Origin: Pseudotamlana agarivorans
Lineage (GTDB): Bacteria; Bacteroidota; Bacteroidia; Flavobacteriales; Flavobacteriaceae
Length of the DNA stretch: 51,894 nt
NCBI RefSeq assembly: GCF_018860245.1
Contig: NZ_JAHKPD010000004.1
Span: 1 to 51,894 of the forward strand
Direction: 5' to 3'
Shown: positions 5,034 through 21,413 of the stretch, one piece after another
Numbering within the stretch: the first letter of the stretch is position 1
How the letters are laid out: the number at the start of each line of letters is the position of its first letter
Made by a program: the position numbers and the translations under genes
Notes under the pieces: generated by a model
What the model was told of the DNA's origin: nothing
The model's database searches: none
Seen by the model: only the letters and a program-made list of their open reading frames with translations

Positions 5034-5101
5034 ACTCGGTTACGATTTGACATGGTATTAAAAATTTAATTCATACTAAATTCTGTTAATTATTAAGTTG
5101 C

Positions 5102-5227
5102 TTATTTCTTCACAATCTTAATTGCTTTGTTTAAAGCTGCAATTTGTAAAATGTATATTCCAGAAGGTAATGTTGATATAAAGTTAAATGTTGTGCTGCT
5201 GTAGTTAAATTTTATAACGCATTCGCT
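5102..5227 (-). pseudogene. Remnant of a T9SS type A C-terminal sorting domain
   Basis: On the minus strand a 41-codon open stretch ends in a stop codon and reads ...FISTLPSGIYILQIAALNK followed by AIKIVKK. This is the end of a type A T9SS sorting signal (Por secretion tail: LPSGIY, hydrophobic strand, basic end). The frame is closed by TAG at 5228-5230 and no start is available, so only the last part of a former secreted protein gene survives. It borders the T6SS locus and suggests a deletion or insertion at this junction. Confidence 0.7.
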
Positions 5228-5316
5228 CTATTACAGAAAAGTTAACTATAATAGTAGGAAAATATTTATTTAATGTTGCGAATGCCTTATATTTAGCGTT
5301 TAAAAATTTAAAACAT

Positions 5317-5775
5317 ATGGCGATAGGTTACGGTTTAGAACGTGATGCTAAACATAAAGACGGGGTTCAAGAATTACCCCCAAATAGAACACTGTTGGTA
5401 CAGAATTTTACAGATTTAGCGCCGCTACTTCCTAAGGTTGTAGAAGGACTACAAACTCCACAAGCTGTTTTTGATTATTATAAACCAAATGTTCATATGG
5501 TTTTTGAAGATTTAAATGGTAGGCAGGTTAAGGAAAGGATAGATTTTAGGAATTTGTCTGATTTCGAACCATCCCATATCACTTCAAGAAGTCCTTTTTT
5601 TAATAATTTGGAACAGAAAAAAATGAACTATTTTGATATGTTAAAGGCACTGCAAAGTGATGAGACTCTAAAGCAGGTTTTTCAGGATAGTGCTTCTAAA
5701 AATATGCTTCTTCAGCGGTTAAAAGCAGTTAAAGTAGAATTAAAGGGCGGCAACCCTGAAAGCACTTACGAATAG
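5317..5775 (+). CDS. tssB: T6SS sheath small subunit TssB, copy 1
   Basis: TssB (VipA) pairs with TssC to build the contractile sheath around the Hcp tube in the cytoplasm. This 152-residue protein has the family N-terminus ELPPNRTLLVQNFTDL, the VVEGLQTPQAVFDYY and IDFRNLSDFEP motifs, and a C-terminal helix that should pair with TssC. It aligns along its length with the second copy at 15057-15509 (NRTL, VEGL...AVF, F.NL.DF) but is clearly divergent. It is followed after one base by tssC copy 1, so the two form a bicistron, as is normal for sheath pairs. It starts at the ATG that gives MAIGYGL. Confidence 0.88.
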   Translation: MAIGYGLERDAKHKDGVQELPPNRTLLVQNFTDLAPLLPKVVEGLQTPQAVFDYYKPNVHMVFEDLNGRQVKERIDFRNLSDFEPSHITSRSPFFNNLEQKKMNYFDMLKALQSDETLKQVFQDSASKNMLLQRLKAVKVELKGGNPESTYE

Positions 5776-5776
5776 C

Positions 5777-7072
5777 ATGATTGAAAACGTACACTTAGAA
5801 GAAGTCAATTTCAAATTTCTGGAAACGCTTATTCCTAATTTGAAATATATGGATACTGAAAAGCCTTTGGAGAAACAACATTTTCTAACTTCAAGTGAGA
5901 ATCAAGCCACTAGAGCGGAACTTTTACAAACTTTAGACTTGTGGGAAGATGTATTAGAAAGTCATGAAGCACTTGAAGATCTAGTAGCTTCTACAAAAGA
6001 GAAAATTATTTGCACTGAAAGTATTTACCAAAAGAACTTAAAGCGTGTTATAAACCGAGCGAAGGATCTGGAGGTTGCTTATAGGGGGCTGACTTTATTT
6101 TTTGAAAACGCTCAAGCTGAAAAAATAAATAATTTAAGTATTCTTAATGCCGATTTAGATCAGCTGAAGGATTTAGATAACCCGATATTTATTGAAGCCG
6201 TTCGTGATGCTTTTGTTGATGCTTACGATCGTTTAGATTTGTGTGATCATTATGCGCTTTTAGTGATTCCAGGCTATTTAGGAAGTCCGATGGTTTTAGA
6301 TAAATGGTCTAAAATTGCTCATGACAATAAAGTATTATTGGTGACCGATTTTGCGCATTTGGACACTCCAGACGATGTTGTTGAGGTTTTTGAGACTATA
6401 GATCATGTTCGTGCAGATACCTACTTGTCTAATACGATTATGACATGTAATTGGCTAGTGGGGCGCGGAAAATATGACGCGATAAGAGAGCTTGATGATT
6501 TGTTTCTGCCACCATCGCCATCTTTAGCTGGGAAAATTTACAGTAATAAAATGTCGCAAGCCAGTGCAGGTATTAAATTTGGAGCCTTAAGTCGGGTTGG
6601 AGGTGTAAGCTTTGATCTTAAGAAAAATGACTTGGCCGTTTTGGAACGCCTTGGTTTAATACCTATGGTTTATAAAAATGGTGAGATTATAGCCTTTTCT
6701 GCAAAAACCTTGTTTAATGGTGATAATTTAGGCTTACAGACGTACTCCGTAGTGCGTGTGTTTGATTATGTGAGTAAGGTGCTTATCGATTATTTTAATA
6801 GGAAAACTTTTGAAAACTTTAATGTACGTACCCGTAGGGCACTCATGCAAGACATTGTAGATTTTTTAGATCGCAACACGGGACCACAAAAACTTATTGA
6901 AAGCTTTGCTATAAAACGTTTGGAGCAAGATTTACAACAAAAGGACCGCGTGCATTTGGAATTGCACATGGAGCCTTATTTTCCTGCTAAAAATTTCTTA
7001 ATTCGTATGGATGGGAAAATTGGAGATTCTGGAAAAGCTAATACATGGGAAGCGGCTTATGAGCAGGGGTAG
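5777..7072 (+). CDS. tssC: T6SS sheath large subunit TssC, copy 1 (DUF5458-type)
   Basis: TssC (VipB) is the large sheath subunit that shortens to drive the Hcp tube outward. The 431-residue protein carries the Bacteroidota TssC core: DRLDLCDHYALLVIPGYLGS, then VTDFAHLD, then SNTIMTCNWLVGRG, then FNGDNLGLQTYSVVRVFDY, and a C-terminal EPYFPAKNFLIRMDG strand. All these blocks occur in copy 2 (15523-16875). Measured to the shared FLT motif, copy 1 is 21 residues shorter at its N-terminus, the region where the ClpV-binding helix lies in VipB. It looks intact. Whether the two pairs make separate or mixed sheaths is unknown. It converges with the minus-strand lipoprotein gene across a terminator. 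Confidence 0.88.
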   Translation: MIENVHLEEVNFKFLETLIPNLKYMDTEKPLEKQHFLTSSENQATRAELLQTLDLWEDVLESHEALEDLVASTKEKIICTESIYQKNLKRVINRAKDLEVAYRGLTLFFENAQAEKINNLSILNADLDQLKDLDNPIFIEAVRDAFVDAYDRLDLCDHYALLVIPGYLGSPMVLDKWSKIAHDNKVLLVTDFAHLDTPDDVVEVFETIDHVRADTYLSNTIMTCNWLVGRGKYDAIRELDDLFLPPSPSLAGKIYSNKMSQASAGIKFGALSRVGGVSFDLKKNDLAVLERLGLIPMVYKNGEIIAFSAKTLFNGDNLGLQTYSVVRVFDYVSKVLIDYFNRKTFENFNVRTRRALMQDIVDFLDRNTGPQKLIESFAIKRLEQDLQQKDRVHLELHMEPYFPAKNFLIRMDGKIGDSGKANTWEAAYEQG

Positions 7073-7120
7073 GGATTGTAGGACACACTAATAAAAACCT
7101 TATTCTAACTAATAAACTAA

Positions 7121-7151
7121 AAACCTCCTAATCTAAATAGACAGGAGGTTT
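7121..7151. terminator. Bidirectional terminator between tssC copy 1 and the lipoprotein gene
   Basis: A perfect 9-base stem, AAACCTCCT (7121-7129) with AGGAGGTTT (7143-7151), has a 13-base loop. It is followed on the plus strand by AATTTTTAT, and on the minus strand by a T-rich run. It lies between two convergent genes and can serve both. Confidence 0.8.
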
Positions 7152-7164
7152 AATTTTTATACCA

Positions 7165-8610
7165 TTACTGAACAGGATCTTCCGTAAGTATGATATTATC
7201 AATTTGATACTCTGTTGTCGCAGCAGTACTGCCTTTTTTGTATCTGAAACCTATTCTAAATTGATCTAAATTTTCAGGAATCGTGATGGTTAATTCTTGA
7301 GTATTAAACCCTTCAGTGTTATTTAAAGGCACGACGTCTTCAATTTCATTGGCTTCATCAAAATCAATGATATCTCCTGTAACATTATCAATTATAAATA
7401 GTTTTAGATTATCACTGTTGTGTTTATGAACGTTAATATCGAAGGTTAGTTTTAATGTACGCACTTGGTCAATTTCTATTTCTTTTGTAATTAACCAAGC
7501 ATCATAATTTGTGGTAGCGCCCCCTTGTTCTATTTCTGCAAAAGCATCAGTATCCGTCATATTTGAAATCCAGAATTTTAGAAGTTGAGGATTTGATATA
7601 TTCATGTTTTCCCATCCGTTAAGGGAAATGATTTCGCCAATTTTTGAAATACTCTGAAAATCTTCAGAAAGTAGGACTCCTGGATCTAAAACATTTTCTA
7701 CGATTTCACACCTAGTTTCTTCAAAAACAATATCATCTATCTCTCTTATAATTAAGGTGTTCGAGGAAAGTATGCCTGTTATAGTACCTTGTTCGTTAGG
7801 AAATGCCCTAGAGTTAAAATTTGAACTGATACTATTTTGTAAATCGATTGAAAGTCCAGAGTCACAATCAGTCAAGGCTTTAATAACATGGCTTCCATTC
7901 ACACTAATTGTATTGTCCACATCCGCATAAGTACTCCCTAATTGGTCTTCCCTTAATTGGATGTTTTCCAGAGTTACTAAAATTGTTGGAAGGGTGGTAT
8001 TTAAAGCATTAGGATCGGTAGATTCTAGCGCCTGTTGAATAGTTAGTACTTTCGGTACTATGGTTTCAGTAATATCTGTTTTAATAATATGCGTATCAAA
8101 TTGATCGCTAGAAATAGGGGTTATTGACTTACTAACTTTATCATAAGTTCCAATATGAATGGTGCTACCAATTTTTTGCATGCCTAGACCGGCCAGTTTA
8201 ACTTGAATTTCTTGACCTACACCAAGGGTACGGTAAATATCATCAACTGCCACGTCGATAACAACACCACCGGTAGGATTCAGGGCTTTATCTTGAATGT
8301 AAATTTCGTGGTTAATATTTTTTTTAGAGTCATTAGAAATCACAAATCCTTTGGTCATTAACGCTTCAGGTAATATTGAGGTATCGGCAAAAGCGATGAC
8401 ATCTCCATTATAAAAAGGCACTATTTGAGACAGTTCGGTAACCGTGAAATTAGTAATTTCTGCGTCTTTTTCATCATCCATGCCATCGTTGGTAATTTCT
8501 TCAATTTCATTATCTAAATCGGGGATTGAAATTTCGTCCTCCGCACATGAATAAACGGTGGATGCGATAATAAAAAAGGCAATAATGGGTTTTAAAAGGT
8601 TGTTTTTCAT
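7165..8610 (-). CDS. DUF5689-type surface lipoprotein with C-terminal jelly-roll domain
   Basis: This is a 481-residue lipoprotein. The signal peptide ends in a lipobox (STVYSC) with Cys22 as the lipidated residue. The acidic AEDE right after it resembles the Bacteroidota export signal that sends lipoproteins to the outer face of the outer membrane. The middle (about residues 50-300) resembles DUF5689, a beta-rich domain often found with TonB-dependent receptors. The end (about 315-481: LLSEDFQS ... YQIDNIIL) looks like a choice-of-anchor J or MAM-like jelly roll, a fold that often binds ligands. The gene starts 12 bases after the TonB-dependent receptor gene, so the two surely form one operon and probably one uptake machine. 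The substrate is not known. Confidence 0.75.
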   Translation of the reverse strand: MKNNLLKPIIAFFIIASTVYSCAEDEISIPDLDNEIEEITNDGMDDEKDAEITNFTVTELSQIVPFYNGDVIAFADTSILPEALMTKGFVISNDSKKNINHEIYIQDKALNPTGGVVIDVAVDDIYRTLGVGQEIQVKLAGLGMQKIGSTIHIGTYDKVSKSITPISSDQFDTHIIKTDITETIVPKVLTIQQALESTDPNALNTTLPTILVTLENIQLREDQLGSTYADVDNTISVNGSHVIKALTDCDSGLSIDLQNSISSNFNSRAFPNEQGTITGILSSNTLIIREIDDIVFEETRCEIVENVLDPGVLLSEDFQSISKIGEIISLNGWENMNISNPQLLKFWISNMTDTDAFAEIEQGGATTNYDAWLITKEIEIDQVRTLKLTFDINVHKHNSDNLKLFIIDNVTGDIIDFDEANEIEDVVPLNNTEGFNTQELTITIPENLDQFRIGFRYKKGSTAATTEYQIDNIILTEDPVQ

Positions 8611-8622
8611 TGTTATGTTTAT

Positions 8623-11600
8623 TTAAAATCTATAATATATGTTTACAAAATAGGTGGCGCCATAGCCTTTCCAGAAACGATTTCCATAAATAGGTTGTTG
8701 GCGTTTAGCGTCTTCTAAAAGGGTGTCGTATTTTAATTGGCCTTGGGTCTCGAACCCTGCGATGTCATGATTTTGACCTAAGGCATTATTTACGCCGGCC
8801 TTAAAACCCATGTGATTTTCTTTAATTTCCCAATATTTTCCACCAAAAAGATTTAAAGTGAGGTAGTTTTCAAGGCTTTTTTGTTTTAATAGAATAGCAG
8901 CGTATTCTGGATTGTAATTGGAGAAAATGGTATTGTTTGTGTCCAAAAAGAAATCACGGGTTCTAAAATAGGGGTTAATATCTAGATAGTTGTCGGCGAA
9001 ATAGTTACCCATGACTTCAAACCACCAATGGTCTTCATCTCTGTACTCGAAACCAAGTGAAAATACTTGAGTAGGGGTGTTTGGTACATGATAATCTTGT
9101 AAAAATACCTCGTTAAGATTAACCACTTCACTTTCCGACATGATATACTGAAGATTAGGATTATTGGTATAGATGAAATCACCCATAGCCACAGCTGTTT
9201 TTATACTTAGCGATTTATGAATTTTGTATGAAGCACCAAACTCTAAGCCCATGTACCTTTTGTCAATGCCGGTAAGGACTTCTTGTATGGTTGAAGAGGA
9301 TGCGTTGTTAATGGTATTACCCGCAAAAGGTCTGTTTGACATACCATCCGATTGAATGTTGAAATAACCTGCTATTTGAGCATTGAATTTCGGACTGCTA
9401 TATGTGTAATTTAATTCTGAAGATAAGTTAGTAGATTGATTAATCTCTATCAATTCAGGAGCTTGGTTGATTTCAGATATAGTGGTTATACCCTGGAGAT
9501 CTCTTGGGTTCTCACTTTCCGCTGCATTTAAAAACATTTGGTTTAACATAGGCGCATTGTTGCCATATAGTGCTCGAAAGCTGATTTTATGTTTCGTATT
9601 TAGTTTTAGACTAAAACCTCCTTTGAAATTGTAATCTAAAAACGTGTAAGTGTTCCCTTTTCCGTAAGATAAATAAGGGGATCGACCATTTTGATATTTG
9701 CCCACTCTGTAGTTGTTAGAATGTGTGATATCTGCCCCTAAAAAAGCATCAAAATGTTCGTTTTTGTATTGACCTTGGATAAAACCATTAAAGGCCGTTC
9801 GATTTAATGCATAATGGTACTTAAATGTTTCATCGGCTTGAACAACTCTATAAGGATTCAATAAATCGGATTGTATCATATCTCCTGTACCATCGCTCGT
9901 ATTTACATCTAAATACCCTGATCCACCTAATAGATTACCCATTTTTGCGTATTGATTGGTAACGTAACTAGAATATCCGAAAGCAGTATTTAGGCTGAAT
10001 AAATTGGTTATTCTAATATCCGCTATCGAATTGACATTGAAATTAGAGTGTTCGACGATGTCATCAAATAGGGTATATGTTGAAGTGTTTAGTCCACTAT
10101 TTATATTATGCTGAAATAGCTCAACCCAGTAAATTTGTCCATATTGCTGGAATGATTGTTGAGCCAAAACAGCGCCTTTATAATCAGGGTTGTTTTCATC
10201 GGCTAGAAAGAAACTAGGAAGTTTTGTGTAAAATGTGGGGTCTGGATTTTTTCCATTTGAAGGTGTAATTTGGTTTGCACCATCGATACTGGCTCCTTGA
10301 AAATCAATTTGACTTCTTGATTTACTTCCAAAATTATATGCAATGTTTGTTTGTACTTTAACACGGGCGCCAACATTAAGATAATGGTTCAACATTAAAT
10401 AAGGTTGTGAAAATTTCTGCTTTCTTGAATTTGTAATATCCTCATTTAACGTGCCCCAATAACTGTTGTATTTGTGGTTTTTTAGATGAAATACTTCGTT
10501 GGTGTTTGCAGATCTTCCGCTGCGACTGGTGCTATTGAAAAAACCAGTAAAATTAATCCAATTACTACTGTTTAATCTCGTTTCTGCACTGATAAGTAAG
10601 GCGTTAGAGTCGTATGGTGTTCCGTCAAAATACCCTTCATTAAAAGCAGATCTTTTTGTTGCTGAAACAGCTAGCGAAAACCCATTGGCTGAAACTCCAG
10701 TAGCATATGTTACATTGACACCATGTGAGTAGTATCTGTTTGCAGACAAATAGGAAATTTTACCGCCTTGTCTTTGAGCTGAAGCTCTTGTGTTCATGTT
10801 TAGACCGCCTAAATTGCCACCTAAACTGTAGTTTGAGGATGCTAAACCATAACTTAAATTATTGTCCTGAAGAGCCTCGTCGAGGCCACCAATACCATTC
10901 CAGTCTGCCGAACCGTTTAACGGACTGTTATAAGTCACACCATTAATGAGCACATCGCCTTCTGAATATTCTTGTCCTCGTGCTTTGAAGAAAGCCGAAC
11001 TGAATTGATAAGACGCTGTTCTTAGAAAGGTTGTGCTTGACGATTGGTAAAAAGCGGCGTTATTAGTTAAGGTTTGATCACCATCGTACAATTGATCTTC
11101 TGCAAAGGTGTTTATTTGTTGATTTTCTATATCATAAAGATCATTTCCTAAAGTTAGGCCATCAATGTTTGTAATTTTTCCTGCACTAATAAATACATGG
11201 TATTTTTTTGTAGTATAGTCGTCTTTAGATACTTTTAGTACTACAGGACCATCGGGTACTTGACCATTAAAAACGAACCTACCATTTTCATCTGTTTTAG
11301 TGGTCATGTAAGCATCGACAATACTTACTCTGGCATTTGGAATAACAGCCCTTGTTTGTTTATGGATAATAATTCCTGTGAGAGAGGTTCCTGTTAGCAG
11401 CGTTAAGTCTTCTTTTTTTGCTTTAGGTTTTTTTTTAGGGTATAGTTTAATGTTTTTTATAGTCGCTTGTTTGCCTTTCAGGATGTTAATGTCAAATTTT
11501 CGAGAGGAATAGCCCAGCATTTCAATAACAACTGTTATTTTACCTAGAGGGACATTTTCTTCTATTATAAATGCTCCAAGCGCATTGGTTTTTTGGTTAA

Positions 11601-11745
11601 CTGTGCTGTTTTCAATAAGTACAAGCGCATTAACAACTGGTTTTTTAGTGGTGTTATTAATGATATTTCCTTTTATTGAAGCTTCTTGTGACCAGCTGGA
11701 GCAAAATATACTCACAAACAAAAGGGTGTAAAAAAATCTTGTCAT
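8623..11745 (-). CDS. TonB-dependent outer-membrane receptor with two CarboxypepD_reg domains
   Basis: This is a 1040-residue outer-membrane active transporter driven by TonB-ExbBD. A signal peptide (cleavage after about residue 19, CSSWSQ/EASI) is followed by two CarboxypepD_reg-like beta-sandwich domains: about 22-100 (IKGNIINNTTKKPVVNALV) and 120-200 (LTGIIIHKQTRAVIPNARV). Then come a plug domain (VLINGVTYNSPLNGSADW) and a long barrel ending in aromatic Phe (VNIYYRF), as barrels inserted by BAM do. Two tandem N-terminal sandwiches are more than the single one in typical receptors. The start lies 37 bases from the clpV stop with no promoter visible in the gap, so co-transcription with clpV is likely. 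The DUF5689 lipoprotein partner follows. The substrate is unknown. Confidence 0.88.
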   Translation of the reverse strand: MTRFFYTLLFVSIFCSSWSQEASIKGNIINNTTKKPVVNALVLIENSTVNQKTNALGAFIIEENVPLGKITVVIEMLGYSSRKFDINILKGKQATIKNIKLYPKKKPKAKKEDLTLLTGTSLTGIIIHKQTRAVIPNARVSIVDAYMTTKTDENGRFVFNGQVPDGPVVLKVSKDDYTTKKYHVFISAGKITNIDGLTLGNDLYDIENQQINTFAEDQLYDGDQTLTNNAAFYQSSSTTFLRTASYQFSSAFFKARGQEYSEGDVLINGVTYNSPLNGSADWNGIGGLDEALQDNNLSYGLASSNYSLGGNLGGLNMNTRASAQRQGGKISYLSANRYYSHGVNVTYATGVSANGFSLAVSATKRSAFNEGYFDGTPYDSNALLISAETRLNSSNWINFTGFFNSTSRSGRSANTNEVFHLKNHKYNSYWGTLNEDITNSRKQKFSQPYLMLNHYLNVGARVKVQTNIAYNFGSKSRSQIDFQGASIDGANQITPSNGKNPDPTFYTKLPSFFLADENNPDYKGAVLAQQSFQQYGQIYWVELFQHNINSGLNTSTYTLFDDIVEHSNFNVNSIADIRITNLFSLNTAFGYSSYVTNQYAKMGNLLGGSGYLDVNTSDGTGDMIQSDLLNPYRVVQADETFKYHYALNRTAFNGFIQGQYKNEHFDAFLGADITHSNNYRVGKYQNGRSPYLSYGKGNTYTFLDYNFKGGFSLKLNTKHKISFRALYGNNAPMLNQMFLNAAESENPRDLQGITTISEINQAPELIEINQSTNLSSELNYTYSSPKFNAQIAGYFNIQSDGMSNRPFAGNTINNASSSTIQEVLTGIDKRYMGLEFGASYKIHKSLSIKTAVAMGDFIYTNNPNLQYIMSESEVVNLNEVFLQDYHVPNTPTQVFSLGFEYRDEDHWWFEVMGNYFADNYLDINPYFRTRDFFLDTNNTIFSNYNPEYAAILLKQKSLENYLTLNLFGGKYWEIKENHMGFKAGVNNALGQNHDIAGFETQGQLKYDTLLEDAKRQQPIYGNRFWKGYGATYFVNIYYRF

Positions 11746-11782
11746 TTGTAGGTTTTAAGATGTGGTTTGTTTTGTTATTAAA

Positions 11783-14233
11783 TTAGTATGAAGACTGAGG
11801 AATAAAGGCAACTAGATTATTTTCTAATTTGACTTCGACCACTTGTGGTGGTTTTATGGTGTCTGAAATGATCATTTTAGCCAATGGTCTTTTAAGTTGA
11901 TCGCGAATCACGCCTTTTAGTGGTCGAACGCCATAGACAGGAGAAAAACCGTTTAGTGCCAAATGTTTTCTAGTGTCATCATCAATATTTATGGTAATGC
12001 CCAGTTGTTCGGCAGTATTGAGCAGTTCCTTTTGCAAGTGTAAATTGAAAATGGAAACCGCATTATTTTCAGAAATAGGGGCGAAGGGAACGATTTCAGT
12101 AATGCGCCCTAAAAACTCCGGACGGAAATAATTGGCCATGATTTCAGTAAGTTGATGAGATGTTGGTATGTTACCATTTTTCATGCTTTTAGAAATAAAA
12201 TCGGAACCAATGTTGGAAGTGAATAAAATAACGGCATTGGAAAAATCTCCTACTTTGCCTAAACGATCATGTAGTTTTCCTTCATCTAAAATTTGTAGAA
12301 AGACATCAAAAACCGATTGATGTGCTTTTTCAATTTCATCAAAAAGGACAATAGAATAAGGTTTTTGTCGAATTTTATTTACCAAAACACCACCTTCTTC
12401 ATAACCCACATATCCTGGAGGGGCACCATATAAAAGCGCTGCGGAATGTTCTTCTTTAAACTCAGACATATCAAAACGAATGATGGCATTTTCATCGTTA
12501 AATAAAAATTCGGCTAAGGATTTCGCAAGTTCCGTTTTACCTGTTCCTGTTGGGCCAGAGAAAAAGAATGAGCCTATAGGTTGTCCAGATTTTGATAAAC
12601 CAGATCTCGATTCTACTATGGCATCGGCAATGGTTTTTATAGCCGAATCCTGACCAATAACCCGTTTTCTTAGAATGGCTTCCATATCAAGTAAGCGCGC
12701 TTTTTCTTGAGTTTGCACCTTTCCAGCAGGAATACCTGTTATAATAGAAACCATGGCCGCTAAATCACCTTCTGTGATCGCTGTGATGTCTTTTTGGGAA
12801 TGCACATAAATTTTCTCTAATACAGAAAGAATATGAATAGTCTTGGCTTCTAAGGTTTTATGCTTTTTATGATCTTCTTCTAAATATTGATCCAATACAA
12901 TAGGACTAATTTTATGGCTGAGGTTGAGGTAAAACGCATCAAGAGCTTCCAGTGTATTTGCTTTAGCGTTTTCGGTATGCTTTTTTTGAATGGCTTCAAA
13001 TTCTAATTGTAAAGCAGTAATTTCTTTGGGAAGGGATTGTTTTGAGACTTTAACAGCCGACATGGTTCTATCGATTAAGTCTATGGCAGAGTCGGGGAGA
13101 CTTTTTTCCTTTAAATAACGTTTCGCTAATCGTATAATTTCTTTTATCGCATGATTTGAAATGTTAAGCTCATGGTGCTTGGTATAAATTTCAGCATGAT
13201 TTTTAATCATTTTAAAAGCTAGTGGATCACCGGGTTCTTCAATATTAACCGTTTCCATACGGCGTTCTAGAGCTTCATCTATAGCAATGAGTTTTCGGTA
13301 GTTTTCAGAAGTTGTTGCCGTAATAAGTGTGATGCCACCAGTGTTAAGTTCCGATTTAATGGTATTGATTATACTTTTATTGGTGGTTTTATCTTCTAAA
13401 AGGGTATGGAAATCATCAATAAAAATTATGGGTTTTTCATAGTGTCTTGAATCTTTGAATAGACTTACTAACCGGTCTTCAATTTCCCCTTTATATGCTG
13501 CAGCAGAAAGTAATGCTGCGGTGTTAATTTCGAAAACCTTAGCACACTTCAAGCTATCTACAATTGTTTTGTGGTGTATGGCAGTTGCAAAGCATTTTAT
13601 AAAAGCTGTTTTTCCAACACCAGATTCCCCTATAATAATAACATGCGGTTTCGATTTTCTGTTTAAAATTTCAGAAACCTGTTTGATCTCGCGATCACGA
13701 CCAATTATAAAATCGTAAGCACCTTCTGAAGCATCCAAAACTAAGTTTTTTGTATATGTAGTTAGGTTGTTGGTATTTGTTAGCGGTTCTAATTCAGATT
13801 TATTCTTATGATTTGGGGCTAACTTTTCATTAAAAAGAGCCATGAGTTGTGTGTGCGTAAGCGGTAAGGATTTTAGTTGGTCAAAACTAAAACCTATTCC
13901 CGGTGTTATCGCGGCAATAAAAATTGGTAGGAGTGGATGGTTATCGGTGGTTAGCGTAAGGTTTAAGTCTTCGGCTTCTTCTAATAGCGTTAGCGCTTGA
14001 CTATCAGCTAAAACGGTATGGTTAAGATTTGAACGTTTGGGATAGTTTTCTAAATGGACAGTGGCCCATTCTTCGATAAAGTATACATCAATATCATGAT
14101 TAAATAACAATCTGAAAATTGAAAAATCTTTGTGTAACAGTGCTTTTATTAAGTGAACAGGTCCATAGTTTTCATGCTGATATTCCTTAGCAATCTGGGT
14201 GGCGATATGGATGACTTTATCGAGTTCTGGCAT
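11783..14233 (-). CDS. tssH: T6SS sheath-recycling AAA+ ATPase ClpV (TssH)
   Basis: ClpV unfolds the contracted TssB-TssC sheath so that its subunits can be reused. The 816-residue chain has a Clp_N domain (about 1-145) and NBD1 with Walker A GESGVGKT (202-209) and pore loop AYKGEIEDRL (Tyr247). A middle region follows, then NBD2 with Walker A GPTGTGKT (560-567), pore loop GYVGY (607-611), Walker B VLFDE (629-633) and a D2-small C-terminal domain. In NBD1 the Walker B reads IIFIDDFHTLL, so Asp replaces the usual catalytic Glu of the DE pair. The arginine pair ALERRM (324-325) is kept. The setting among tss genes marks it as ClpV rather than ClpB. It diverges from hcp and leads a possible operon with the receptor and lipoprotein genes. 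Confidence 0.9.
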   Translation of the reverse strand: MPELDKVIHIATQIAKEYQHENYGPVHLIKALLHKDFSIFRLLFNHDIDVYFIEEWATVHLENYPKRSNLNHTVLADSQALTLLEEAEDLNLTLTTDNHPLLPIFIAAITPGIGFSFDQLKSLPLTHTQLMALFNEKLAPNHKNKSELEPLTNTNNLTTYTKNLVLDASEGAYDFIIGRDREIKQVSEILNRKSKPHVIIIGESGVGKTAFIKCFATAIHHKTIVDSLKCAKVFEINTAALLSAAAYKGEIEDRLVSLFKDSRHYEKPIIFIDDFHTLLEDKTTNKSIINTIKSELNTGGITLITATTSENYRKLIAIDEALERRMETVNIEEPGDPLAFKMIKNHAEIYTKHHELNISNHAIKEIIRLAKRYLKEKSLPDSAIDLIDRTMSAVKVSKQSLPKEITALQLEFEAIQKKHTENAKANTLEALDAFYLNLSHKISPIVLDQYLEEDHKKHKTLEAKTIHILSVLEKIYVHSQKDITAITEGDLAAMVSIITGIPAGKVQTQEKARLLDMEAILRKRVIGQDSAIKTIADAIVESRSGLSKSGQPIGSFFFSGPTGTGKTELAKSLAEFLFNDENAIIRFDMSEFKEEHSAALLYGAPPGYVGYEEGGVLVNKIRQKPYSIVLFDEIEKAHQSVFDVFLQILDEGKLHDRLGKVGDFSNAVILFTSNIGSDFISKSMKNGNIPTSHQLTEIMANYFRPEFLGRITEIVPFAPISENNAVSIFNLHLQKELLNTAEQLGITINIDDDTRKHLALNGFSPVYGVRPLKGVIRDQLKRPLAKMIISDTIKPPQVVEVKLENNLVAFIPQSSY

Positions 14234-14289
14234 GTATATAAATGATTAATATTCACCTTTATTTTGATGAATTAAAAATTAAAATTTGC

Positions 14290-14297
14290 CAAATGTA
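14290..14297 (-). promoter_or_regulatory. tssH: Possible clpV promoter -7 box
   Basis: Read on the minus strand this is TACATTTG, a full match to the Bacteroidota -7 consensus TAnnTTTG, 57 bases upstream of the clpV start. No clear TTG lies 19 bases further up, so this is a weak call. Confidence 0.3.
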
Positions 14298-14420
14298 AGA
14301 TTAATTTGTAAGAATTAACCCTATATATTATAATTATAAAATCCTACATATGAAATGTTTTTCCTACTTATTGAATACCAGAATGTTAAGTATTTATTTA
14401 CATATAATGAAATAAAATTC

Positions 14421-14450
14421 TTGCAAAACTTGTAATTTTTTATAGTTTTG
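14421..14450 (+). promoter_or_regulatory. tssD: Bacteroidota-type promoter of hcp
   Basis: TTG at 14421-14423 and TAGTTTTG at 14443-14450 are exactly 19 bases apart. This is the consensus -33/-7 arrangement of the Bacteroidota primary sigma factor. Transcription would start near 14456, giving a leader of about 60 bases before the hcp ATG. It is one of the two best promoter matches in the window and fits the need for abundant Hcp. Confidence 0.7.
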
Positions 14451-14514
14451 TGCTTGGCTTTTATGCCGTTATATATATTTAATCAGGTAGTATTTACCAC
14501 AAAAACAAGTTATT

Positions 14515-14904
14515 ATGGCTTTTAAAACAAAGTTAAAAGTAGGCGGAAACGAGTACAACGTGTTAAGTTGTAGTTATGCGCTTAAACAAGAAACTGATGC
14601 AACGGGTAGACCCTCTTCTGTAACTAGAGGTGGTGAAGTTAAAGTTGTAATCGAATCGACTGGAGGAACCGAATTATTCGAGTGGCAATGCAGTAGTTTT
14701 GAGCGTAGAGATGGCTCTATTGAATTTACAAAAAGAGACACCGACGCCAAACTCAAAGAAATTACTTTCGAAGAAGGGTATTTAACCTATTACAGAGAAG
14801 ATTTTGATGCAAACGGAAGCAATCCACTTACTCAAACATTTACAATCTCTGCTAAAGTACTTTCTAGTGGAGGAGGAATTCATGAAAATGAGTGGCCTGT
14901 TTAA
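14515..14904 (+). CDS. tssD: T6SS tube protein Hcp (TssD)
   Basis: Hcp stacks as hexameric rings to form the tube expelled by sheath contraction, and it can carry effectors. The 129-residue protein matches the Bacteroidota TssD family: MAFKTKLKVGGNEYNVLSCS at the start, then YALKQETDATGRPSS, VVIESTGGTELFEW, and a C-terminal TFTISAKVLSSGGG strand. Its length is typical of a plain tube subunit with no toxin extension. It has a strong consensus promoter 65 bases upstream and a terminator just downstream, so it can be made in excess over the sheath genes that follow. It is the only hcp in the window. Confidence 0.92.
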   Translation: MAFKTKLKVGGNEYNVLSCSYALKQETDATGRPSSVTRGGEVKVVIESTGGTELFEWQCSSFERRDGSIEFTKRDTDAKLKEITFEEGYLTYYREDFDANGSNPLTQTFTISAKVLSSGGGIHENEWPV

Positions 14905-14947
14905 TTTCAGTGATTAGACCTTTTTAAAAGTCTATTGAAATGATTTT

Positions 14948-15000
14948 ACAAAAAGGGGGTGTTTATGTTTTTTCATGCATGCTCTTTTTGTTCTTTTTTT
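14948..15000 (+). terminator. Terminator or attenuator after hcp
   Basis: ACAAAAAG (14948-14955) pairs with CTTTTTGT (14984-14991), with partial pairing inside, and is followed by a TTCTTTTTTT run ending at 15000. It would end most hcp transcripts and let a fraction read into tssB copy 2, for which I see no separate consensus promoter. Confidence 0.65.
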
Positions 15001-15056
15001 AGTTAAACATGAAGCCGTTTTGGCGAGGTAAAAAAATAAATTTTAAATATATAATT

Positions 15057-15509
15057 ATGGCATCCAATAAAGTAGGACTAGGTGGTAATGTAACAGATAT
15101 TGATGCTGGTGAAGCATTAAATGAAATTCCACAAAATAGAACACTAATTGCTGGGAAACTCACACCTAATACTCCTATTAAACCAGTAGCTGTTGAGGGT
15201 TTAAGGTCTGTAGACGCAGTTTTCGAACATTTTCAACCCGAGATAAATATCGCGTACGAAGACAAGGAGGGGGGAACAATTAATGAAGTGACCAGGTTTA
15301 CTAATTTAGGTGATTTTGGAAAAAAAGGCATTACCGAAAGTAGTGATTTTTTAAAAGGACTTGAGATAGAAAGTGAGCAATACAACAAGGTTATTAAGCA
15401 ACTTAAAACCAATAAAGTTTTAAAACAGGCTTTGCAAGATGAAACATCAAAAGCAGGATTAATTAGCACTTTGGAATTGTTAATTGAAGAGTTGAGCGCT
15501 TCTAAATAA
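15057..15509 (+). CDS. tssB: T6SS sheath small subunit TssB, copy 2
   Basis: This is the second VipA-type sheath subunit. I start it at 15057, giving 150 residues beginning MASNKVGLGG. This matches the length and N-terminus of the family. An earlier in-frame ATG at 15009 would add sixteen residues (KPFWRGKKINFKYII...) right after the hcp terminator and is unlikely. Family blocks are EIPQNRTLIAGKLTPNTP, AVEGLRSVDAVFEHF, TRFTNLGDFG and a C-terminal helix LISTLELLIEEL. It sits with tssC copy 2 after a 13-base gap and directly behind hcp. That is the usual core setting, so this pair is the better candidate for the main sheath. Confidence 0.9.
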   Translation: MASNKVGLGGNVTDIDAGEALNEIPQNRTLIAGKLTPNTPIKPVAVEGLRSVDAVFEHFQPEINIAYEDKEGGTINEVTRFTNLGDFGKKGITESSDFLKGLEIESEQYNKVIKQLKTNKVLKQALQDETSKAGLISTLELLIEELSASK

Positions 15510-15522
15510 AGAAATACAAATT

Positions 15523-16875
15523 ATGGCACAAATAGAAAATAGTCAGCAAGGTTTACTTGAAAAACCATATGTAGAGCAAATATTAGAGAAATCTGATGCA
15601 TTAGCTAAATTTGGCGGGTTTGATCTTTTGGAATCTGCAATTGATGATATTCAAAATTTAAACCCTGATCGTAAAGCCCGTCGTAAAATCTTCCTAACAG
15701 AGAATAATAAAAAGCAAGACCGCACCGAACTACTTAAGGTTTTAAAACTTTGGAAGGAGACCTTAAGTTCTGAGGGCGATTTAATCGATCTTATTGAAAA
15801 AACGAATGAAAAGGAAGTTCAGGCGAAGCAGGTATTAAAAAAGAATTTAAAAATAGCTCTAAACTCAACAAGAGAGTTAGAAGCTTCTTACCGTTCGGTA
15901 GCTTTATTTTATAAGAACACAGATGAATCTGCTATAAAAAATGCGACGATTGTAAATGCTGAATTAGAGCAATTAGCCGATTTGGATAATACGCGATTTT
16001 TTGATTATATCCGTGAAGAAATTGTATCCAGTTACGACCGTTTAGATTTAAGAGATAATTACGCCTTACTAGTTGTTCCTGGGTACCTAGGAAGTAAGTC
16101 GGTAGTGGACAAATGGGCTAAAATGGCACATGCTAATAAAGTAACTATGGTTACTGATTTTGCACACCTAGATGAGGCAGATGATGTTATGGAGCTTTTT
16201 GAAAGTGCTAATTTGGCCAGTGGTGATGCATATCTTTCTAATACAATTATGACTTGTAATTGGTTAGTTGGAAGACCAAAGGAAACGGAGTTAGGTGAAG
16301 AAGAAGATCTTTTTATCCCGCCTTCTGGGGCTTTAGCAGGAACCATGTATAAAACCTTAATGTCTCAGGTTACGGCTGGTAAAAAACATGGTGGGTTAAG
16401 CGAAGTGGAGGCTGTAAGTTTTGACTTAAAAAAGAGTGAGATCGCCGTTTTGGAAAATCTAGGATTGGTGCCCATGGTAAACGAATATGGTAAAGTTATG
16501 GCCTTTTCTGCTAAAACATTATTTAACGGGGATAATATTGGGTTACAAACGTACTCTGTAGTTCGTGTGTTTGATTACATATCTAAAGTGTTAATGGATT
16601 TCTTAAACCGTCGTGCGTTTGAAAACTTCAATACTAAAACGAGAAATGAAATTTTAAAGCAAATCGTAAAATTTTTAGATGGTGTCACAGGACCAGATAA
16701 ACTTATTGAAAACTTTGATATTAAACGATTTGAACAAGATCAATTTCAAAAGGATAAAATACATGTTGACATCCGTTTAAAACCATATTTTCCAGCTAAA
16801 AACTTCCTTATTTCTATGGATGGACAAAAAGGAGATGAAGGCGCAGAATGGGATACCGATTATGCGGAGCAATAA
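15523..16875 (+). CDS. tssC: T6SS sheath large subunit TssC, copy 2 (DUF5458-type)
   Basis: This is the second and longer TssC (450 residues). It shares with copy 1 the blocks DRLDLRDNYALLVVPGYLGS, VTDFAHLDEADDV, SNTIMTCNWLVGRP, FSAKTLFNGDNIGLQTYSV and KPYFPAKNFLISMDG. By eye roughly half of the residues in the core are identical. Its extra N-terminal part (about residues 10-45, LLEKPYVEQILEKSDALAKF) is helical and has no equal in copy 1. In VipB the N-terminal helix is the ClpV handle. It is followed by an inverted repeat before tssE that may lower expression of the baseplate genes. Confidence 0.9.
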   Translation: MAQIENSQQGLLEKPYVEQILEKSDALAKFGGFDLLESAIDDIQNLNPDRKARRKIFLTENNKKQDRTELLKVLKLWKETLSSEGDLIDLIEKTNEKEVQAKQVLKKNLKIALNSTRELEASYRSVALFYKNTDESAIKNATIVNAELEQLADLDNTRFFDYIREEIVSSYDRLDLRDNYALLVVPGYLGSKSVVDKWAKMAHANKVTMVTDFAHLDEADDVMELFESANLASGDAYLSNTIMTCNWLVGRPKETELGEEEDLFIPPSGALAGTMYKTLMSQVTAGKKHGGLSEVEAVSFDLKKSEIAVLENLGLVPMVNEYGKVMAFSAKTLFNGDNIGLQTYSVVRVFDYISKVLMDFLNRRAFENFNTKTRNEILKQIVKFLDGVTGPDKLIENFDIKRFEQDQFQKDKIHVDIRLKPYFPAKNFLISMDGQKGDEGAEWDTDYAEQ

Positions 16876-16983: not shown

Positions 16984-17415
16984 ATGCAACATAATTATTA
17001 TAAGTTTCCTTTAAATGCTACAGCATTAATCCAAAATAGGTCGATTGAAAAATCAAATATCGAGGTGTCAATAGCCAATTATATCCATTTGATTATGACA
17101 ACGCGTTTTGGAGAGTGCCACTTCGATCCTTCTTTTGGAAGTGCGATATGGGATGTGGACTTCAATAATATTGGGTCGGATAATAAGCTTAGGACCATGG
17201 TGTTAGAATCTTTAATAAAATCACTAAAAACATACGAAACACGACTTTCAAATATTGAATTTGACGTTCATATAGCACAGGAGGAAATAAACCTTCGCCG
17301 TGAAAAAAGTAGAATTAAAAAAGGTGTATCCATTTCAGTTAATGGGGTTATAAAAAAAATCAATGAAGCTTTTAGTTATAAAGAACATTTTTTCATCGCG
17401 CCATTATCCTATTAA
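16984..17415 (+). CDS. tssE: T6SS baseplate protein TssE (gp25-like)
   Basis: TssE is the gp25-like wedge protein of the baseplate and the point where sheath assembly starts. The 143-residue protein has the family core GECHFDPSFGSAIWD (about residues 43-57) and a following helical part (LESLIKSLKTYETRL), then a lysine-rich strand pair. Its length is normal. It is separated from tssF by five bases, and both are downstream of the tssC hairpin, so tssE to vgrG probably form one lower-level unit. Confidence 0.85.
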   Translation: MQHNYYKFPLNATALIQNRSIEKSNIEVSIANYIHLIMTTRFGECHFDPSFGSAIWDVDFNNIGSDNKLRTMVLESLIKSLKTYETRLSNIEFDVHIAQEEINLRREKSRIKKGVSISVNGVIKKINEAFSYKEHFFIAPLSY

Positions 17416-17420
17416 TAGTT

Positions 17421-19280
17421 ATGAGTTATAGCACTAAAGAGGATATAAAAAACCGCATGATGAAAAAGGCAGCTAGCCTTTGGAACATCCCTAATAATGA
17501 GGTTTCCGATTCATTCGATCCATTAATTTCTTTATTACTTTCAGCTTGTGCTTCAGAGATAGAAAAGCTCTCTGGAGATATTAATGATTCTCAAAATAGA
17601 ATTACCGAGCGACTTATTCAGCTCATGACACCATCATCAACTTTCGATGTAAAACCAGCCCATGCCATTGCCTATTGTGAGTCTGTAGAACCTAAAAGTA
17701 TAATCACTCCAGAGCATCAATTATTTTATAAAAAAAGGAAGGCTTCTTCGAATATTGGTGAGGGGCATAAAGATGTGTTTTTCACACCAACCCAAGAAAC
17801 GAATCTGTTAGACGCAAGGCTTAAGTACATGGTTTCTGGTCAAAAATTATTTACTTTTTCTGGTCGAAAATCAAAAGACTTAACGCGTAGATTAAATACA
17901 AAATCTGATCCTGATCAGACCACATTATTTCTAGGTATTGAAAGTGACCATAAGCAAATTGATTTGAAAGATATTTCATTTTATTTTGAGTATTTAGGCG
18001 TTTCAAATAGCGAACTTTTTTATCATCACTTACGTAATGCTACATGGTATTTAGGTGAACAAAAAATAGAAACAGTTAATGGTTATCATAATGGTGATGT
18101 CGATAATAACGCGGAACTCGATCGTATTATTAATGGTGTGGTAAGCAAGTCTGATACGTTATGTGCGGATGTTAATCAGTATTATCAAAAGCATTTTGTA
18201 ACCTTGAAATTGGAAAATTCGATTAGCAATTTCCCAAAATACGCGGAATTAGAAAAATTAAAAGCAGAAGATCAAGAGGCATTTTTAGCAACAAATATTT
18301 TATGGATTAAGGTGCAATTTTCGAGTATTATTAGTTCAAAATCATTAGAGCAATTATACTGCGCGATTAATGCTTTTCCTGTGATAAATAGAAAAAGGAA
18401 TCGGTTTACTTATCAAATGAGAAATTTCATTGATATTATTCCTATTCTTTCTGAAGATCCGTTTTTTGATGTTCAGACCATTGAAAACACTTCAGGGCAA
18501 ATCTATAAAAATGAAGGTGCCCAAACAGCAGATGGTTATCAAGGGAGTTATTTTTTACGAAGTGACAATGTAGGTAAATTAGATTCTAGAAAAGCTCAGG
18601 ACTATATCGTGCATTTGTTAGAATTACTTAAAGATGAAAGTGCCGCCTTTACTTTTTTTAATCACGAATTTCTACAGAATAACTTAACTACTCTAAATCA
18701 AACCATTGCTTCTATAGAAAAGAAGGTTAATGAAGTGGTGCATGATGGTGTTTATACGAATTACGTTTATTTAAACCCTTATACTGGCAATGAGAATGTC
18801 AAAGTGACTTACTGGACGATTAATGGGGAAGAAGCAAACCATATCAAGTCGGGTAAAAGCCTTGAAATTTATAAAGGTTCCCATTTAAAACCTAAAAGCA
18901 GTTATTTTATTAGACCTGTTTTTGGAGGTCGCAACAGTTTATCAATGGCGCAGCGCCTTCAAGCCTACAGGCGCATAACATTAACAAAAAACCGGATTGT
19001 AACAGAAGAAGATTTAAAAGCGCTTTGTTATGAGTTGTACACCGAAAATGTCAAGTCTATTGAAATAAAAAAGGGGGTCATAACAGATATATCCGTAAAC
19101 AAAGGGGTGTTACAGTGTATCGAAATTGTTCTTACACCAAGTGAAAACAGTGCTTTGAAAGCTTATGAATGGGATTATTTAAATGAAAATTTATTAGCTG
19201 TTCTAAAAAAACAATCTGTAAATATTTTTCCTTATAAAATTAAATTAAAGCATCTTAATAGTCAATTAAAGTATGAATAA
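17421..19280 (+). CDS. tssF: T6SS baseplate subunit TssF
   Basis: TssF is the large wedge subunit of the baseplate and normally works with TssG. The 619-residue protein shows the TssF start: SFDPLISLLLSACASEIEKL, then RITERLIQLMTPS, then FDVKPAHAIAYC. Beta-rich middle domains follow, and near residue 500 an RPVFGGRNSLSMAQRLQAYR block just before a helical C-terminal domain. The length fits TssF alone, so TssG is not fused to it. Its end overlaps the next gene by eight bases, which implies translational coupling. No tssG homologue follows in any frame, although wedges in other T6SSs need it. Confidence 0.82.
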   Translation: MSYSTKEDIKNRMMKKAASLWNIPNNEVSDSFDPLISLLLSACASEIEKLSGDINDSQNRITERLIQLMTPSSTFDVKPAHAIAYCESVEPKSIITPEHQLFYKKRKASSNIGEGHKDVFFTPTQETNLLDARLKYMVSGQKLFTFSGRKSKDLTRRLNTKSDPDQTTLFLGIESDHKQIDLKDISFYFEYLGVSNSELFYHHLRNATWYLGEQKIETVNGYHNGDVDNNAELDRIINGVVSKSDTLCADVNQYYQKHFVTLKLENSISNFPKYAELEKLKAEDQEAFLATNILWIKVQFSSIISSKSLEQLYCAINAFPVINRKRNRFTYQMRNFIDIIPILSEDPFFDVQTIENTSGQIYKNEGAQTADGYQGSYFLRSDNVGKLDSRKAQDYIVHLLELLKDESAAFTFFNHEFLQNNLTTLNQTIASIEKKVNEVVHDGVYTNYVYLNPYTGNENVKVTYWTINGEEANHIKSGKSLEIYKGSHLKPKSSYFIRPVFGGRNSLSMAQRLQAYRRITLTKNRIVTEEDLKALCYELYTENVKSIEIKKGVITDISVNKGVLQCIEIVLTPSENSALKAYEWDYLNENLLAVLKKQSVNIFPYKIKLKHLNSQLKYE

Positions 19281-20262
19281 GAAAAGTAATGAAACTATAA
19301 CAAAATATCTTGATAAGAATGTCATAGTGCTTTTTCTATGTGTTTTCCTAGCATCAGGAACCGCTTTAGCATATAGGATTTTTACCGATTTTCCATGTGA
19401 GCAAATTGTAATGGATATTAATTCTAGAGCCTATCGCGTAGGTGAGTTGGTGAAATTTACAGATCTCACGGAACAAAGTGAAAGTTGGCAATGGCATTTC
19501 GGAGACAGTTCTGCGGTTTCTACTAAAAGAGAGGCCCTGCATGTTTATTCGAAACCAGGTAAATATGAAGTTAAACTTAAGGTGAATAATAGCTGTGAAA
19601 CAACTCAAACTGTTATTATAAAGAAAAAAAAGTTTGTATTAGATCCTAATAAAATCCCCAATTTAATTGTGCCAGATAGTGTTACAGTAGGGCAAAAATT
19701 AATTCTAACCGATAGCACTGCTGGAGCTTATAGCTGGGAATGGCGTTTTGGTGAAACGGCAAACGCCAATGCGACGACGAAAACGGCTGAATATACTTAT
19801 ACCGATTTTGGTTTAAAAACGATCACATTAGTAGTTAATGGAGATATTAATCATATGGCTAAACAGCGTATAAGGGTTTATGCTGAAGCAATTGAAGAAA
19901 AGCCTTTAGAGCGAATCAAACCTAAAGAAAGAGAATTGGGTTGGGATATTCCTTATGAACCTGAAGTTGAAGCTGCTGAAGAAAATGTGGAGAAAAAAAT
20001 TCCCTTTATTAGTGAATCAGATTTTAAAGTAGAAATTTTAAAAGTGTCAGATGAAAAGATTACGGAAAAGCAATTGGAAATATATTTCTGCGGAAGCATT
20101 AATAAATCTATAGTCGTAAACGGTAAAAACACCACGTTTTTAGTCTTTTGTCAGAAAATAAGAGGGAAGAATATAAAAATTAAACGATTAACTATTTTTA
20201 GAAATGAAGGCTCTAATTGTATTGAGAATATTAATCTAGAATATAATAGAAAAATTCTTTAA
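19273..20262 (+). CDS. Membrane-anchored PKD-domain protein of the T6SS, TssP candidate
   Basis: This is a 329-residue protein with a short cytoplasmic N-terminus, one membrane segment (about 17-35) and a periplasmic part. The periplasmic part holds two PKD-like domains: about 45-118 with SWQWHFGDSS, and 130-208 with YSWEWRFGET. A charged linker rich in Glu and Lys (about 210-240) and an unrecognised C-terminal domain (245-329) follow. It overlaps tssF by eight bases and ends two bases before tssK, so it belongs to the T6SS unit. T6SSiii replaces the TssJLM membrane complex with TssN, O, P, Q and R, and a single-pass periplasmic protein at this place fits TssP best. The assignment rests on layout and position, not on a motif I can name. 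Confidence 0.6.
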   Translation: MNKKSNETITKYLDKNVIVLFLCVFLASGTALAYRIFTDFPCEQIVMDINSRAYRVGELVKFTDLTEQSESWQWHFGDSSAVSTKREALHVYSKPGKYEVKLKVNNSCETTQTVIIKKKKFVLDPNKIPNLIVPDSVTVGQKLILTDSTAGAYSWEWRFGETANANATTKTAEYTYTDFGLKTITLVVNGDINHMAKQRIRVYAEAIEEKPLERIKPKERELGWDIPYEPEVEAAEENVEKKIPFISESDFKVEILKVSDEKITEKQLEIYFCGSINKSIVVNGKNTTFLVFCQKIRGKNIKIKRLTIFRNEGSNCIENINLEYNRKIL

Positions 20263-20264
20263 TT

Positions 20265-21413
20265 ATGGAATATAAACACAGGTTAAACTGGGTAGATGGC
20301 ATGAAAATCAATAAAGATCATTTTGTTGGTTTTGAGGATTCTATGATGCAACAATTAATGGTGATGCATAGCAATTACGTGCATCAAAATAATTATGGAT
20401 TATTACCTAGCCCTGGAGATCGTGAATTGCCGGTGAAATTGTCTATTTCTATGGATGGACCAGAAAATTTATTGGTGACCGTAAGCAAATGTTTGGCCGT
20501 AACTTTAGGGGGGTATCAGATCGTAATTAATGATGAAGTTAATGCCTTCTTAGAGCAATCTGGACACATTATCAAAAATAAATTTGCGCTCAATCCTGAA
20601 AATAAGATATGTTATATTGTACTGTCTGTAAACCCTTTTAAGCGAATACCAGTTGGTTTTTCAAATCCAGAAGAGGAGCCTGTTAGAAAACCATTTGTTA
20701 TAGGTGCATATCAAATTTCATTAGTGTCCGAAACAGCCATGCCTAACCAAGAAATTAGTTTAAATAGTATCACGATAGGTAAGCTAATTACAGATAGCGG
20801 TCAAGCTCGATTAGTTGATGATTTTATTCCACCATGCACGTCTATTCAAAGTCATCCCGATTTGAGATACGCATTCTTAGAAGTAGATACTTTTTTAAAT
20901 GGCATGGAACTTTATTGTACGCAGGTTATTCAAAAAATATATCAAAAAAAACAAGCCAATGATTTAGCTAAAATGGTTCTAGCATTATCTAACGATGTGT
21001 TAACTTATTTAAGAGCTGTGATTACCACTTATCGTATAAAGGATAAATATGCTTCTCCAGTTGAAATGATTATAAAGCTTGTTAGTTTGGCGAGAACTAT
21101 TAAAGGGAGTTTGGATGTGCATGCAGGAACGGGCAAGGAGCATCTTCTAAACTACCTCACAGATTGGTGTGATGTAAATCAAGGTGCTTTTGAAAAGGTT
21201 TTAGATGACATGATTAGCCTAGAATATTTGCATAATGATATAAATGTGGCGCTCCAAAAGGTATCTGGATTTACAGCGTTAATGAGTGCTTTGTTTAAAA
21301 AGCTAAATGAATTAGAATACATAGGAAAGAAATCTGACTCTAACATTTTTGTAAAAGAAGATGTAATTGTTGAAGAGCAAGTAAAAAAACGCCGTCGTTT
21401 TTTTATGGAATAA
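20265..21413 (+). CDS. tssK: T6SS baseplate connector TssK
   Basis: TssK is the adaptor that joins the baseplate to the membrane complex. The 382-residue protein begins with the family signature LNWVDGMKINKDHF, equivalent to the WxxGMxLxPQHF start of classical TssK. It continues with a beta-rich shell region (residues 50-165) and a helical bundle with a C-terminal domain. It is a little shorter than proteobacterial TssK (about 440), as is usual for T6SSiii. It ends in the basic stretch KKRRRFFME. It is packed between the PKD protein (two-base gap) and tssO (37-base gap). Confidence 0.82.
   Translation: MEYKHRLNWVDGMKINKDHFVGFEDSMMQQLMVMHSNYVHQNNYGLLPSPGDRELPVKLSISMDGPENLLVTVSKCLAVTLGGYQIVINDEVNAFLEQSGHIIKNKFALNPENKICYIVLSVNPFKRIPVGFSNPEEEPVRKPFVIGAYQISLVSETAMPNQEISLNSITIGKLITDSGQARLVDDFIPPCTSIQSHPDLRYAFLEVDTFLNGMELYCTQVIQKIYQKKQANDLAKMVLALSNDVLTYLRAVITTYRIKDKYASPVEMIIKLVSLARTIKGSLDVHAGTGKEHLLNYLTDWCDVNQGAFEKVLDDMISLEYLHNDINVALQKVSGFTALMSALFKKLNELEYIGKKSDSNIFVKEDVIVEEQVKKRRRFFME

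Follow-up and report, generated by a model that had tools for sequence, protein, structure and literature searches.

A 51,894-nucleotide stretch of Pseudotamlana agarivorans contig NZ_JAHKPD010000004.1 (hereafter the window, with a G+C content of 35%) carries a subtype iii type VI secretion system (T6SSiii) in which two complete sheath pairs, TssB1-TssC1 (TssB1C1) and TssB2-TssC2 (TssB2C2), appear to serve a single machine. Descriptions of the T6SS usually give each machine a sheath made from a single TssB-TssC pair. Judged from sequence, the two pairs are old paralogues, and the reading we put forward, to which we give an even chance, is that TssB1C1 would be a specialised sheath protomer co-assembling with TssB2C2 on one baseplate, one membrane complex and one Hcp tube. 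The original prediction of two intact tssB-tssC pairs at 5317-7072 and 15057-16875, with roughly half of the TssC core residues identical, holds: both pairs are there with no internal stops, and TssC1 and TssC2 share 229 of 429 aligned residues (53%), TssB1 and TssB2 49 of 145 (34%). At its N-terminus TssC1 falls short of TssC2 by about 20 residues, and a scan of the entire window genome with the TssC family PF17541 gives these two proteins as its only matches. TssB2, for which a longer open reading frame (ORF) opens at 15009, has no Pfam match at E 0.01; the genus mate G004 has a canonical T6SSiii, and with its TssB the identity is 43% across 149 residues.

TssC1-type genes were collected from eight distinct genomes, sampled as one genome per species: five from the window's genus (termed Tamlana here and comprising the window's own genome, G000, and genus mates G001 to G005, among them Tamlana agarivorans, G001, T. 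haliotis, G002, and Tamlana sp. 2_MG-2023, G003), G179 from another genus of the same family, Algibacter lectus and the uncultured Flavobacteriaceae isolate 710. PF17541 has two matches in five of the six genomes of the genus, the window's included, and a single one in G004, in a canonical T6SSiii distantly related to the window's. All eight TssC1-type genomes also hold a TssC2-type gene, and TssK and TssN each give one match per genome in the nine genomes tested, these eight among them. That one sheath pair is the T6SS norm, as had been supposed, is borne out by a PF17541 survey (E 0.001, union of the matches listed) of 1132 distinct genomes (a total taken from the genome numbering): TssC occurs in 81, one of which, G1043, has its match under the family cut-off, and among the matches listed 11 of the 81 carry at least two TssC, six of these 11 being TssC1-type. 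Chryseobacterium, Niabella and others have two TssC as well, but of 12 further genomes tested that carry several TssC, 11 have two TssN (G1125, one such genome, has three TssC), where TssC1-type genomes have one; a second TssC elsewhere is therefore mostly, by this sign, probably that of a second system. The exception, G675 (L152, L153), with two TssC and one TssN, lies outside the TssC1 group and is a possible independent two-sheath case. Two TssC per genome are thus not special in themselves; the distinctive feature is that a single TssK and a single TssN go with two pairs, in 8/8 genomes. The single TssK and single TssN of the window genome argue that both sheath pairs serve one machine, and rule out TssB1C1 as the sheath of a second T6SS.

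TssB1C1 was also considered as the sheath of another contractile system. The window genome has, on contig C11 at about 228-236 kb (L218-L219), a separate cluster resembling extracellular contractile injection systems (eCIS), with gp25, PAAR, gpV-like, CIS_tube, two gp19 tube proteins and its own sheath. This cluster holds the only second gp25 among the eight TssC1-type genomes; in the other seven, PF04965 (gp25) gives one match each, inside the T6SS cluster. The candidate was rejected, as the C11 cluster has a sheath of its own and the other seven genomes have only the T6SS gp25.

The age of the two pairs was assessed from trees of TssC and TssB. The TssC tree (n = 59) was built from 60 of 147 distinct TssC (82% identity clusters, every TssC1 retained) after removal of one very long row. 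In it the eight TssC1 form one group and the seven TssC2 of the close genomes another, each with support 100/99. A wider set (96/88) unites these TssC2 with Flavobacterium and allied TssC, and TssC1 branches outside it. The TssB tree, in which the bootstrap had not settled so that support values are rough, gives the same two groups (TssB1, n = 8, 98/100; TssB2, 100/98), with TssB2 within the main TssB tree. An approximately unbiased (AU) test rejects the seven close TssC1 and seven TssC2 as one clade (p-AU 0.009), and no longer rejects the joint clade once the long-branch TssC of G179 is added (p 0.12). A very recent, lineage-specific tandem duplication, which the original prediction had named as the finding that would overturn it, is excluded by the separate TssC and TssB groups. 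Its expectation of separate, co-evolving clades is borne out in part: the TssB and TssC groups are distinct and 8/8 genomes keep both pairs, but the inner branching of the groups differs. The main TssC of G179 groups with the TssC of G363, apart from Tamlana TssC2, which implies that the TssC1 lineage is older than these genera or has moved between them.

Divergence between the two large subunits is concentrated at the N-terminus. In windows along the alignment TssC1 and TssC2 are 23-38% identical within the first 100 residues and 45-78% identical from residue 101. Taking 133 other TssC as reference (six distant rows dropped), 164 columns are at least 95% conserved, and at least seven of the eight TssC1 keep 2/17 of these within TssC2 residues 1-100 and 113/147 beyond residue 100. 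In the Pseudomonas aeruginosa sheath the N-terminal helices of TssC lie in the outer domain 3, and the lattice handshake is formed by TssB N-terminal and TssC C-terminal strands (PMC5807055). By analogy, and with the mapping carried over to T6SSiii, TssC1 would retain the lattice parts while its outer part has drifted. Two substitutions, F360Y and A365T (TssC2 numbering), are found in TssC1 only (8/8 against 133/133); a two-residue insertion in the C-terminal linker, considered as a further TssC1 mark, was discarded, being also present in the TssC of G004 and L105 and missing from the TssC1 of L067. Searches of PDB sequences with TssC1 and TssC2 returned nothing at E 0.01, and the best hit with a TssC profile was a DUF877 protein at E 0.2; among the viral contigs searched, one locus was found, at 53% identity. 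TssC1 is under purifying selection. Between G000 and G003, dN/dS is about 0.07 for TssC1, 0.19-0.24 for TssB1, 0.03 for TssC2 and 0.07 for TssB2, and between G001 and G005 it is 0.17-0.28 for TssC1, 0.02-0.03 for TssC2 and, with few changes, 0.34-0.56 for TssB2. No stop lies inside any of the eight TssC1.

TssB1 is adjacent or fused to TssC1 in all eight cases. A single ORF is predicted for the pair in three of them (G001, 514 aa; G002, 513 aa; G179, 580 aa) and in none of 139 other distinct TssC. G001 and G002 have a common fusion junction and that of G179 differs, and the sequences allow that the G179 fusion may be a separate event. The PF17541 match of the fused forms opens at profile position 38-46, and these proteins are without a free TssC N-terminus, which in Vibrio cholerae and enteroaggregative Escherichia coli is the target of ClpV, P. 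aeruginosa H1 being different (PMC5048182, PMC4239648). By that analogy whole sheaths built from fused forms alone would be difficult to recycle, and the fusion of the second set in some relatives hints at a specialised additional function within the machine. The N-terminal helix is not recognisable by eye in the three fused TssC1, and one like it is retained in unfused TssC1, that of the window among them (FKFLETLIPNL beside FDLLESAIDDI); as a general claim, loss of the ClpV handle by TssC1 is weakened accordingly.

The two pairs also differ upstream. GTAGGAAAA stands 63-65 bases before the tssB1 start in four of the five genus genomes, with a two-change form in the fifth, and is followed by TATATTTA; it was not seen upstream of tssB1 in A. 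lectus, isolate 710 or G179. In the same five genomes a TANNTTTG box lies 72-73 bases upstream of hcp, and unlike hcp, tssB1 has no such box upstream. The two sheath pairs are therefore, as far as these unlike regions tell, probably controlled apart. With R in first place GTAGGAAAA occurs five times in the window against 2.1 expected; as a motif common to the main cluster it was rejected, since it is upstream of clpV in G000 only.

We favour co-assembly because the tested machine parts are single, the TssC1 core is conserved, the fused TssBC1 gene of G179 has tssC2 and tssE as its immediate neighbours on either side, and sheaths made of fused forms alone would be difficult to recycle. Both protomer kinds would then occupy one lattice, to which TssB1C1 would contribute in a minor or position-specific way, in the first baseplate ring, at the distal end or scattered, and it would need no ClpV-binding TssC N-terminus of its own, since neighbouring TssC2 subunits could supply one. 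The separate upstream region, together with the separate locus seen in two genomes, would suit a component required in lesser quantity or under certain conditions. A narrower version, which we hold tentatively and consider rather unlikely, makes TssB1C1 a position-specific segment, at the baseplate ring or the distal end, of a two-protomer sheath, with the outer domain 3 dispensable and, in some lineages, a one-chain, pyocin-like form; TssA has been reported as not detected in gut Bacteroidales (PMC4714493).

Several observations weigh against co-assembly. In G005 and G1135 the TssC1 pair lies away from the main cluster. Residues specific to TssC1 stand at 13 positions, and these might just as well be the sign of a lattice that is separate and incompatible. 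The use of the TssC N-terminus by ClpV is carried over to T6SSiii from Proteobacteria, and as unfused TssC1 keep the helix, loss of the ClpV handle could hold for the fused forms only. G002 joins G001 and G005 in the TssC1 group, but G000 and G003 in the TssC2 group; such incongruent branching makes recombination or transfer likely too, so that by these trees the sheath pair has probably been retained but also exchanged. Finally, between G000 and G003 the evolutionary rates of TssC1 and TssB1 exceed those of TssC2 and TssB2, which fits relaxed constraint, as does the higher TssC1 ratio between G001 and G005, a pair that looks recombinant: the first 140 TssC1 residues of G005 and G001 are 26% identical and the remainder 93%, with TssC2 at 99%, which points to recombination near TssC1 residue 140. 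Relative to G001, recombination at L026 (G005) seems to have replaced TssB1 together with the N-terminal part of TssC1.

Among the alternatives, TssB1C1 may form a whole alternative sheath that replaces TssB2C2 under other conditions on a shared baseplate, poorly recycled or single-use in the fused lineages. This is possible, if on balance unlikely: the difference between the tssB1 footprint and the hcp promoter region in the genus, the separate loci of G005 and G1135 and the conserved core and C-terminus of TssC1 speak for it, but TssB1C1 is never the sole sheath, the G179 fusion sits within the main sheath and baseplate genes, and a homogeneous sheath of forms without a free TssC N-terminus might be a dead end for ClpV. 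We think it improbable that TssB1C1 is a surplus copy under weak constraint, one more pair, redundant or allele-like, kept near effector-like genes, shuffled by recombination and with no distinct role. Its faster evolution, the split identity of G005 and G001 TssC1 and the C-terminally extended Hcp proteins encoded close to the pair in G003 and A. lectus would suit such a copy, but dN/dS is well below 1, the eight TssC1 are free of stops, the old groups co-occur in all eight genomes and the tssB1 footprint is kept within the genus. That TssB1C1 copolymerises with the main sheath as a regulator or brake, stopping it, shortening it or holding it extended, is very improbable: the altered N-terminal region on a compatible core and the TssC1-only F360Y and A365T in an otherwise conserved C-terminal half would allow it, but there is no sign of inhibition here and a brake has no obvious need of a TssB-TssC fusion.

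The assignment of the locus to T6SSiii stands, with ClpV, Hcp, TssE, TssF, a TssP-like PKD protein, TssK, TssO and VgrG between 11783 and 23813 (Table 1) and the markers TssN, TssO, TssP-like protein and TssD of PF17642 present in the window genome. The tssB1C1 genes are followed by the minus-strand DUF5689, 1040-aa protein and clpV genes, and these by hcp, tssB2C2 and tssE onward. TssP is predicted to have two PKD-like domains (PMC10781749).

Table 1. Sheath pairs, T6SSiii components and associated features in the window
Feature	Position	Strand	Basis
tssB1 upstream footprint, candidate promoter/operator	5254..5295	+	GTAGGAAAA (5254-5262), TATATTTA 25 bases on
tssB1, second small sheath subunit	5317..5775	+	152 aa; VipA PF05591 E 1.4e-4, residues 68-136, below Pfam cut-off
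tssC1, second large sheath subunit	5777..7072	+	431 aa; PF17541 E 2.5e-188, profile 12-430
DUF5689 lipoprotein-like protein	7165..8610	-	PF18942 E 2.9e-40; inside T6SS cluster
Outer-membrane-like protein, 1040 aa	8623..11745	-	Two CarboxypepD_reg domains, PF13620/PF13715
tssH/clpV, sheath-disassembling ATPase	11783..14233	-	AAA_2 E 1.6e-57, ClpB_D2-small; cluster position
tssD/hcp, tube protein	14515..14904	+	129 aa; PF17642 E 3.3e-48
tssB2, main small sheath subunit	15057..15509	+	150 aa from MASN start; named by TssB1 similarity and position
tssC2, main large sheath subunit	15523..16875	+	450 aa; PF17541 E 3e-231, profile 3-429
tssE, gp25-like baseplate	16984..17415	+	PF04965 E 2.1e-7
tssF, baseplate	17421..19280	+	PF05947 E 9.7e-6, just under cut-off
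tssP-like PKD protein, membrane complex	19273..20262	+	PKD_4 E 2.7e-18; TssP named by PKD domains only
tssK	20265..21413	+	TIGR03353 E 5e-8, under cut-off; sole match in genome
tssO, membrane complex	21451..21960	+	PF17561 E 1e-37
tssI/vgrG, spike	21987..23813	+	PF04717 E 1.9e-22

Further parts lie on contig C20 of the window genome, which holds NlpC, a TssG-like gene (named from position and weak similarity, and matching no Pfam family), TssN and another Hcp; T6SSiii loci are often split, and multiple copies are named for tssD (PMC10781749). TssR (PF20782) was found in one of seven genomes, G004, and in none of the six TssC1-type genomes tested, and is missing or unidentifiable in 31% of T6SSiii systems (PMC10781749). 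The 1040-aa protein has by eye a signal-like N-terminus and a C-terminal YYRF. Kin of it and of the DUF5689 protein occur in the T6SS clusters of seven of the eight TssC1-type genomes, none being seen in the G179 stretch, and among the best 80 of 220 loci in a TssC scan of named genomes (flanks of at most 10 kb) four carry both, every one TssC1-type; from these sequences it is possible that the two proteins form an outer-membrane component of the T6SS here. Near the TssC1 pair or DUF5689, L024 (16353-17048), L185 (7812-8507) and L186 (363-1070) encode Hcp-like proteins of 231-235 aa. The Hcp domain is N-terminal in the L024 protein, the one tested, and such proteins resemble carried effectors. 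At about 5100-5230 on the minus strand of the window lies a C-terminal stub that matches the type IX secretion system (T9SS)-type terminus of a protein of 1285 aa, encoded intact in G003 between sdaA and tssB1; G001 and G002 have 1284-aa ORFs at the same place, likened to it by position. Farther along, positions 36684-50792 (plus strand) encode a 4702-aa SprB-repeat adhesin with a CHU_C type IX signal, with PorP/SprF genes nearby.

Compared with known systems, the locus shares with the canonical T6SSiii TssB-TssC described in PMC10781749 a PF17541 TssC, a tssB adjoining tssC and a conserved core; it differs in that one pair per machine is the rule there, by the survey above, and here the N-terminal region of TssC1 is shorter, altered or lost. 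Nothing on two sheath pairs was found in section 11 of that paper, and a phrase-based search of the open-access literature found no other natural TssB-TssC fusions or second sheath pairs beyond the precedent described below. A resemblance may also be drawn to PVC and Afp, which have multiple sheath proteins where AlgoCIS has a single one (PMC8894135), the likeness being more than one sheath protein per particle, as predicted in the present case. If TssB1C1 were indeed position-specific, a two-protomer sheath would be the T6SS counterpart of the eCIS multi-sheath design. The sheath subunits of eCIS are single chains, and the particles are released.

The closest precedent is TssCL of roseobacters, an extra TssB-TssC chain in a T6SS that has normal TssB and TssC as well and that we take to be a T6SSi. 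TssCL, from Alphaproteobacteria, has 1684 aa with two VipA domains and one VipB domain in one chain, and four Tateyamaria clusters have instead two tssC, 34-37% identical (PMC9515649). Its domain make-up, compared here from its description, is not matched by the fused ORFs (513, 514 and 580 aa), each of one TssB and one TssC part, which belong to T6SSiii; five of the eight pairs, the window's among them, are unfused. Two old pairs, one baseplate and natural one-chain protomers make a mixed or segmented T6SS sheath directly testable, and the lineage also allows one to ask how a T6SSiii sheath is terminated and if anything beyond recycling by ClpV calls for the outer domain and the free TssC N-terminus. 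Set beside TssCL, as far as a comparison of descriptions goes, these fusions suggest repeated origins of additional fused sheath proteins, in T6SS classes far removed from one another.

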